A DNA stretch of 64,000 nt, from the NCBI GenBank assembly GCA_903907995.1, contig CAIVQH010000019.1, forward strand, positions 124,001-188,000, written 5' to 3'. Under the pieces are notes generated by a model. It saw only the letters and a program-made list of their open reading frames with translations. It ran no database searches and had not been told where the DNA came from. Shown piece by piece: positions 26,125 through 39,770 of this stretch (position 1 is the stretch's first letter; every line of letters begins with the position of its first letter). The position numbers and the translations under genes are program-made. Source of the DNA: an uncultured Verrucomicrobiota bacterium. GTDB taxonomy: Bacteria; Verrucomicrobiota; Verrucomicrobiia; Limisphaerales; UBA9464.

Positions 26125-26143
26125 GAAGGGGAGAATCGGGGCG

Positions 26144-26171
26144 CAAAGCTCAAAGTTCAAAGTTCAAAATC
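26144..26171. repeat. Heptamer array (CAAAGTT)
   Basis: Four 7-bp units, CAAAGCT, CAAAGTT, CAAAGTT and CAAAATC, at the 5' edge of rnhC in the gap towards mutY. Confidence 0.65.
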
Positions 26172-26296
26172 CGTCAATGGGGTCGGAGTTTGAATTTGGA
26201 AAACAGGAAAGCAGGAATGAGCCGTTTTCCTTCCCGCTTTGTGTCTTTGCGCCTTTGTTGTTCACCCCCTGGCTTCACAGCGTTTACGTTGGTCGC

Positions 26297-27427
26297 GTGA
26301 CCCGCGTCAAAGCCGTGCCAACTGTTCCGGATCCCGTTCCCGAGGAGCTGGTGCCGTTGCTGCTCGCGTGGTTTGCCACGAACGCGCGCGACCTGCCGTG
26401 GCGGCGGACGCGTGATCCCTACGCGATCTGGATCTCGGAGATCATGCTCCAGCAGACGCAGGTGAAGACCGTCATCCCATACTGGGAGCGCTGGCTGCGG
26501 GCGCTGCCCGACGTGCGCGCTCTCGCGGAGGCTCCGGAGGACCGCGTGCTCAAGCTCTGGGAAGGACTGGGCTACTACACGCGAGCCCGCAATCTCCAGC
26601 GTGCTGCCCGCGTCGTGCTCGCGGAACACGGTGGGAAATTCCCGAACGACCATACCGCGCTCCTGGCGTTGCCCGGCATCGGCCGCTATACCGCCGGCGC
26701 CATCGCCAGCATCGCCTTCAACCAACCGGCCCCGATTCTCGACGGCAACCTCATCCGCGTGCTCACACGCGTCTTTGCCCTGCCGGGCGACCCGAAGGAG
26801 AAGCCGCTCAATACCCGTCTCTGGCAATTGGCTGAAGAATTGGTGGCAGCTGCATCCGCCACGAAACTCGTAAATCGTAAATCGCAAATCGTAAATTACT
26901 CCGGTCCTTGCTCCACGCTGAACCAGTCGCTCATGGAACTCGGGGCGACTGTCTGCACGCCACGCGCGCCGACCTGTCTTGTCTGTCCGCTGGCGGTCCA
27001 TTGCGTCGCCTGCCGCACCGGCCGCGCCGCGGAGTTCCCACAGTTGGCCGCGCGCGCCGCCGCGACAGAGCGCCGTTTCGTGGTCGCCGTGTTGGAGCGA
27101 GGCGGCAAGGTGCTCGTCCGCCAGCGCCCGGCGAAGGTCGTCAACGGCGGTCTCTGGGAGTTTCCCAATGAGGAACTGACCGGTCTCGGAGCCGACGCGC
27201 GTGCTGCCGCTGCGAGATGGCTTGGCCTACCCGCCGCCACGCTGAAGCCGCTCAAGCCGGTGAAGCACACCATCACCCGTTACCGGATCACGCTGGATAC
27301 TTTTCGCGCGGCCGCAGGGAAGAAGCCCTTGCCGGTGGAATCCGGCGCGATCTGGAGCGACCTTGCCGACTTGGAACACCTGGCATTCACCAGCGCTCAT
27401 CGGCGGATTTCGAAACAGCTCGGATAA
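26297..27427 (+). CDS. mutY: A/G-specific adenine glycosylase
   Basis: A 376-residue base-excision repair enzyme removing adenine opposite 8-oxoguanine. From GTG 26297: catalytic Glu48 in ISEIMLQQTQV, helix-hairpin-helix LPGIGRYTAGAI, catalytic Asp149 in ILDGNLIRVL, 4Fe-4S cluster CX6CX2CX5C (C220, C227, C230, C236), and a C-terminal NUDIX-like domain that recognises 8-oxoG (VRQRPAKVVNGGLWEFPNEEL). Residues about 186-206 (SATKLVNRKSQIVNYSGP) form an insertion just before the conserved NQSLMELGATVC and are encoded by a heptamer array (26869-26896). Confidence 0.95.
   Translation: MTRVKAVPTVPDPVPEELVPLLLAWFATNARDLPWRRTRDPYAIWISEIMLQQTQVKTVIPYWERWLRALPDVRALAEAPEDRVLKLWEGLGYYTRARNLQRAARVVLAEHGGKFPNDHTALLALPGIGRYTAGAIASIAFNQPAPILDGNLIRVLTRVFALPGDPKEKPLNTRLWQLAEELVAAASATKLVNRKSQIVNYSGPCSTLNQSLMELGATVCTPRAPTCLVCPLAVHCVACRTGRAAEFPQLAARAAATERRFVVAVLERGGKVLVRQRPAKVVNGGLWEFPNEELTGLGADARAAAARWLGLPAATLKPLKPVKHTITRYRITLDTFRAAAGKKPLPVESGAIWSDLADLEHLAFTSAHRRISKQLG
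26869..26896 (+). repeat. Heptamer array inside mutY
   Basis: Four 7-bp units CGTAAAT, CGTAAAT, CGCAAAT, CGTAAAT inside the mutY reading frame, without a stop in that frame. The flanking GAAACTCGTAA also occurs before the intergenic array at 39682, suggesting a common source. Confidence 0.8.
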
Positions 27428-39519: not shown

Positions 39520-39681
39520 AGGAAGGACGGCATGACGGTTTCCAAACAAGACCTACGGACGTTGCGGGCGGGCGGAACGAACGTCAACGCTGGAGTCAGA
39601 AGTGGTAGTGGTAAGCACGAGCACGAGCATGAGCATGAGCATGACGCGATCCCTCAAACCCGGGGCTTGGCACTGGAAACT

Positions 39682-39702
39682 CGTAATTCGGAATTCGGAA
39701 TT
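39682..39702. repeat. Heptamer array (CGGAATT)
   Basis: Three 7-bp units CGTAATT, CGGAATT, CGGAATT followed by CGAAACTT; preceded by GAAACT, as in the mutY array. Confidence 0.65.
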
Positions 39703-39770
39703 CGAAACTTCCGGATTCCATGTCGCATTTTCGGTGGAGAAGGTCTGGACTGGTTTCCTAAGCTGCGAAC

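Follow-up and report, generated by a model that had tools for sequence, protein, structure and literature searches.

According to the accessible parts of the papers cited in this paragraph, heptameric simple sequence repeats occur in Xanthomonas (GGGAATC), Nostoc (GGGGA(C/T)T) and Calothrix (PMC4692102), while in marine Beggiatoaceae direct repeats of TAACTGA lie mostly just upstream of start codons and, inside genes, are usually deleterious owing to the stops they contain (PMC4679880). Rickettsia palindromic elements (RPEs) are a dispersed repeat found in frame within unrelated metabolic genes (PMC10969869), and the tandem repeats of Borgs evolve fast and make disordered protein segments (PMC9879509). 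For one verrucomicrobial genome, 54 short tandem repeats were reported, and the word heptamer is absent from the accessible portion of that report (PMC4210602). Of the titles and opening lines of abstracts listed by our search of the open-access literature, with subscription journals mostly outside its scope, none dealt with heptamer arrays of MutY or of Verrucomicrobiota.

The array described here lies in frame within an intact mutY gene of an uncultured member of the order Limisphaerales, in a window (the whole stretch of DNA that was analysed) of 64,000 nucleotides. Named relatives place the genome in the phylum Verrucomicrobiota, and it probably belongs to subdivision 3. Coordinates are collected in Table 1, where the RNase HIII-like ORF was named from its translation and not by family search. 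The product matches the family model TIGR01084 over its full length (317.2 bits, above the cut-off of 286.5) and the E. coli-type model NF008132 below its cut-off (271.9 vs 427); of its three Pfam domains, the C-terminal one is NUDIX-like. An AlphaFold2 model based on a 48-row alignment had a mean pLDDT of 94.6, and its best PDB matches were MutY-DNA complexes. The array occupies an interhelical loop just ahead of four cysteines that presumably bind the [4Fe-4S] cluster. In the model, the block of residues 191-200 scored 71, other blocks scoring 92-98 except for the first (65), and the loop is best read from this model as disordered. With the array acting as a passive spacer, the enzyme should still work.

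Table 1. Features in and around mutY, numbered from the first nucleotide of the window.
Feature	Position	Strand	Remarks
Different heptamer array (CAAAGTT)	26140..26172	+	Between divergent RNase HIII-like ORF and mutY, just upstream of mutY
mutY, A/G-specific adenine glycosylase, 376 aa	26297..27427	+	Putative GTG start; TIGR01084; HhH-GPD, HHH, NUDIX_4
Interhelical loop, residues 188-203	26858..26905	+	DSSP on model; helices 169-187 and 204-218 either side
Heptamer array	26863..26897	+	Five units, GTAAATC (rotation of TCGTAAA), in frame; identical in G003
Codon CAA (Q197), variant unit	26885..26887	+	Plain unit would give TAA stop
[4Fe-4S] cysteines C220, C227, C230, C236	26954..27004	+	Invariant columns in 48-row alignment
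Intergenic array, same family as mutY array	39676..39709	+	TCGTAAT/TCGGAAT units

The in-phase units of this 35-nt array read GAAACTC GTAAATC GTAAATC GCAAATC GTAAATT and code for about 12 residues (K190-Y201). A preliminary description had placed a heptamer repeat at 26869-26896, and the array is indeed there: Tandem Repeats Finder delimits it at 26868-26896 (period 7, 4.1 copies, 90% matches), and GAAACTC, earlier taken as flank, proves to be a fifth, degenerate unit. With up to two mismatches, TCGTAAATCGTAAA has four matches in the window, three of them inside the mutY array, vs 0.09 expected. The same description held that the repeat has no stop in this frame, which is right in that the gene is open, but open only thanks to one unit. 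Because 7 = 1 mod 3, in fact, all frames of a heptamer array pass through the same seven codons, and a perfect TCGTAAA array therefore meets a TAA once per 21 nt, whichever of the three sense frames is read. The mutY frame stays open because the fourth of the five units reads GCAAATC (a rotation of TCGCAAA) and gives CAA instead of TAA. In reverse orientation the TCGTAAA unit is stop-free.

An identical array is present in a second genome of the genus (G003), whose MutY is 90% identical. Since G003 carries the same array, an assembly accident is unlikely. The preliminary description had suggested looking for variation in unit number, and none was seen between these two species: the array is unchanged while the mutY genes are 87.7% identical. 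This conservation of the array does not exceed background, as 46 of the 1089 39-nt windows compared are also identical.

The main point of our observations is not a single tolerated insertion but recurrence at one loop. We searched 320 genomes of the order, of which 273 matched MutY at 1e-60 and 47 gave no match; the gene was examined in 152 genomes (the nearest relatives, then the best-scoring) and in 26 low-scoring ones, with 95 matching genomes left out. An array was counted as internal if, from residue 20 onward, 17 or more of 21 positions matched at lag 7. On this criterion, 30 of the 152 genes contain period-7 arrays: the pre-cluster loop holds 27 and a second loop (residues ~110-114) the other 3, with none elsewhere; 17 N-terminal arrays in the same genes were kept out of this count because the start codon was uncertain. 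Control lags of 4, 5, 8, 10 and 11 gave no array in the 152 genes, and of 3040 codon-shuffled genes one had an array. Three further arrays, all in the pre-cluster loop (L324, L325, L329), were found among the low-scoring genomes. Outside the order, none of 29 MutYs from other Verrucomicrobiota had an internal array, nor was an insert of the same kind but lacking the heptamer pattern found conserved across the phylum, the loop being short in those MutYs in which it was measurable; among 72 MutYs of other phyla, the sole array flagged lay at or past the C-terminal end of a cyanobacterial gene (L109) and was not counted. Chance or an assembly artefact is scarcely credible as an explanation: the assembly is still in draft form, with 60 contigs, but the array recurs in a second species and the control lags were empty.

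Unit sequences in the MutY loop vary between lineages of the order. On a FastTree phylogeny from which the loop columns had been removed, parsimony (gains plus losses) required 20 changes for array presence and 29 for the unit label, labels being assigned by eye. In one close pair, G184 and G176, separated by a tree distance of 0.062, the units are TCAACTT-like and TCACTCT-like, respectively, and the loops differ by one residue. The sense unit is stop-free in 27 of the 30 MutY arrays (antisense, 16/30) and contains a stop in 3, including the one described here. Filtering of arrays by reading frame is thus only weakly shown, and the 27/30 is given little weight because it is hardly above the 31 of 38 stop-free strands of 19 non-coding arrays.

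The array in mutY belongs to a family dispersed through its own genome. Across the whole genome, the pattern TCRNRAW matches 61 times, partly with overlap, and its reversal not once, and 41 of 45 distinct arrays of the family are intergenic by a simple gene finder, the heptamer repeats being dispersed and mainly intergenic. In 164 kb of this genome, intergenic DNA (28.6 kb) held 9 arrays and called genes (135 kb) held 2, namely the mutY array and another that overlaps the start called for the RNase HIII-like gene. Sequence GAAACTCGTAA occurs both at 26863-26873 and at 39676-39686, in agreement with the match between flank and intergenic array noted earlier, and another intergenic array (L040) has 29 nt exactly in common with the mutY array. 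The 45 arrays (L033-L072, L153-L167) are oriented toward genes and lie at gene edges, at both ends: next after 29 of them comes the start of a co-directional gene, no more than 122 nt away in 25 cases, and next after 12 the end of a convergent gene, no more than 16 nt away in 11 cases. Inverted partners of at least 11 nt within 250 nt were found upstream of 7 of the 45 and downstream of none. By eye, inverted pairs of heptamer arrays were also seen in some intergenic regions (L033, L039, L159, L164, L171).

Other units are common elsewhere in the order: GCATCAC in G122 and G123, GCATCCA in G178 and GCATTCC in several relatives, G177 being mixed. In pattern searches for one unit family, all 12 rows of G122 and 15 of the 16 rows of G123 had GCATCAC, and 10 of the 12 rows of G178 had GCATCCA, MutY itself accounting for two of these. 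In these three genomes the units thus match those of MutY. Genome G177 breaks this matching, its MutY carrying GCATTAC and the genome mostly other units; there the reversed control gave 35 matches vs 13 for the pattern, and this reversed pattern can itself match another heptamer family. Over 21 genomes with few arrays each, 413 of 10,000 permutations shared units as well as the data did (817 of 10,000 once the genome described here was removed), a weak and underpowered signal; the pattern searches are clearer for the three genomes above.

These data bear on the possibility that slippage was purely local, each array growing from 7 nt of the loop that happened to be duplicated and being unrelated to the other arrays of its genome. 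The accessible text of PMC4692102 and PMC4679880 puts forward polymerase slippage for heptamers of bacteria, and such an origin would suit the many different unit sequences, the weak sharing by permutation and the second-loop arrays, which resemble the local sequence of array-free relatives. We nevertheless regard it as less likely than not, as the mutY array belongs to the intergenic family of its own genome, down to the 29 nt in common with one member, and the unit repertoires of G178, G122 and G123 match their MutY.

MutY is far richer in arrays than other coding DNA. The 30 arrays in 160 kb of mutY correspond to 0.187 per kb, whereas twenty stretches of 16-20 kb from related genomes, divided by a simple gene finder, contained 4 internal genic arrays in 293 kb and 12 other (non-coding) arrays in 103 kb (0.117 per kb). 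The density in MutY is thus about 14 times that of the other coding DNA of these genomes (binomial p 2.4e-10, sequences treated as unrelated). Only 8 of the 20 stretches have any array and 12 have none. Period seven prevails: 51 loci of the order yielded 35 arrays for lag 7, 19 for lag 14, which is its harmonic, and 0-1 for each remaining lag between 4 and 15, with a smaller contrast in the twenty stretches (16 at lag 7, 5 at lag 6 and 4 at lag 8). MutY is a hot site for arrays, though not the sole one. In the 30 genomes with a MutY array, a set biased through having been chosen for it, MurG had arrays in 8 of 29 genes, Nth in none of 29 and TrmU in none of 28. The MurG arrays (among L345-L373) lie at three different places, five of them, in family f55, sharing one site near residue 231. 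In G177 and G180, two species of one family, the DUF58 genes have arrays at the same place. In G266 (L430), trmU is in two frames at a locus without a heptamer array.

The preliminary description had credited the array with about 20 extra residues. Measured between the motifs LPGIG and NQxLMELG, the loop is 84 residues long in this MutY, 68-177 in the order (commonest 76; 154 of 178 genes measurable). Verrucomicrobiota that do not belong to the order have only 67-68 residues there (measurable in 11 of 29 genes), and other phyla 62-74, mostly 67 (measurable in 24 of 72). Against outsiders the excess is 17 residues, close to that figure; by another measure, against the nearest array-free relatives (G002, G004, G020), it is 2, and the array itself encodes about 12. 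The array did not, then, lengthen a short-looped MutY by 20 residues, since array-free relatives are already long-looped, and from these sequences a long loop seems to characterise the order. Array-free loops show a slight excess at lag 7: the value is 0.319, the remaining lags between 2 and 22 giving 0.263-0.301. Decayed arrays would be expected to leave such an excess. In two genomes (G071, L326; G068, L328), the pre-cluster stretch is 177 and 172 residues long, with no heptamer array detected.

The greater length inside the order might suggest that the loop peptide was selected for a function such as DNA or partner binding, heptamers merely supplying the sequence. Such selection seems to us quite improbable, given that the length ranges so widely within the order (68-177 residues) and that the close pair at tree distance 0.062 has different units in loops of nearly equal length.

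MutY is a non-essential enzyme, so its earlier characterization as essential-type did not hold, and its loss leads to a mutator phenotype. A contingency locus could accordingly be imagined, in which a unit added or dropped would put the gene out of frame and turn MutY off reversibly as a heritable mutator switch, and both a unit length that is not a multiple of 3 and the higher density in MutY than in other coding DNA would be in keeping with it. We found no support here for such a role, which we consider very improbable: no array-linked frameshift appeared in 178 MutY genes (one genome per species, several of the low-scoring genes ending at contig ends), the array is the same in two species whose mutY genes have diverged, the arrays are short and often imperfect, and MurG has them too. 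Candidates for a gene switched off were rejected individually. Among the 26 low-scoring genomes, the splits of which both halves were seen are long in-frame loops; an apparent frame change in G188 is a run of N, that is, an assembly gap; and the single internal stop in G297 falls past the loop. The latter gene (L321) has its internal TAA just after the third cluster cysteine and is possibly a pseudogene or an assembly error.

Taking these results together, we consider it probable that dispersed heptamer arrays persist in a disordered MutY loop where they are nearly neutral for the enzyme. Genomes of the order carry short, dispersed arrays, common in some and sparse in others, with genome-specific units; new sites might arise by 7-nt slippage together with copying between sites, which is a guess; selection would presumably clear arrays from most coding DNA and leave them chiefly in intergenic positions and in a small number of protein loops, among them the loop of MutY ahead of the [4Fe-4S] cysteines. 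In the genome described here, the frame through the GTAAATC array in that loop is kept open by its one CAA-carrying unit. The array thus appears to be tolerated rather than useful. The earlier idea of a tolerated, spreading repeat was largely right about the spreading, as the family is dispersed and mostly intergenic and the gene remains open, but the event is no one-off, the same loop being hit across the order.

Tolerance alone, however, does not predict that arrays should be denser in MutY than in the non-coding DNA of the sampled related genomes, although in the genome described here the non-coding density is higher (9 in 28.6 kb). An unlikely but more far-reaching alternative is a process that, throughout the order, would place 7-nt units at the edges of genes and in exposed coding loops, by writing or by copying them, and would be quick enough to replace one unit with another with next to no change in loop length. 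Compatible with it are the period of 7 shared by many unit sequences, the differences in unit repertoire from genome to genome, the orientation of arrays toward genes at both gene ends and the G184/G176 pair with its different units. If such a process exists, the MutY loop would be its natural recorder.

Compared with the systems described so far, the present arrays resemble the heptameric repeats of Xanthomonas, Nostoc and Calothrix in their seven-base units, few copies, dispersal, over-representation in non-coding DNA and variability, as given in the accessible text of PMC4692102; they differ in that many genome-specific units are found within one order and one conserved enzyme's loop is used recurrently, in frame. 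They share the heptameric unit length with the TAACTGA repeats of Beggiatoaceae, which have another unit and for which no recurrent colonisation of one enzyme loop is described in the accessible part of PMC4679880. Like the RPEs, the mutY array is a dispersed repeat inserted in frame, but RPEs are palindromic elements of ~150 bp, whereas this is a 35-nt direct array with no inverted match of at least 8 nt within 600 nt on either side, and thus not an RPE by that measure. The in-gene units of Borgs are, in the accessible text of PMC9879509, all divisible by three, in contrast to the 7 nt seen here. The 30 in-frame arrays in 152 genes provide a natural, countable set for studying the origin of arrays, the reason for a period of seven and the way in which dispersed DNA turns into protein. 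Heptamer repeats between bacterial genes were known; what these genomes add is the repeated occupation of one loop of a repair enzyme, even though gain or loss of a single 7-nt unit there breaks the frame.
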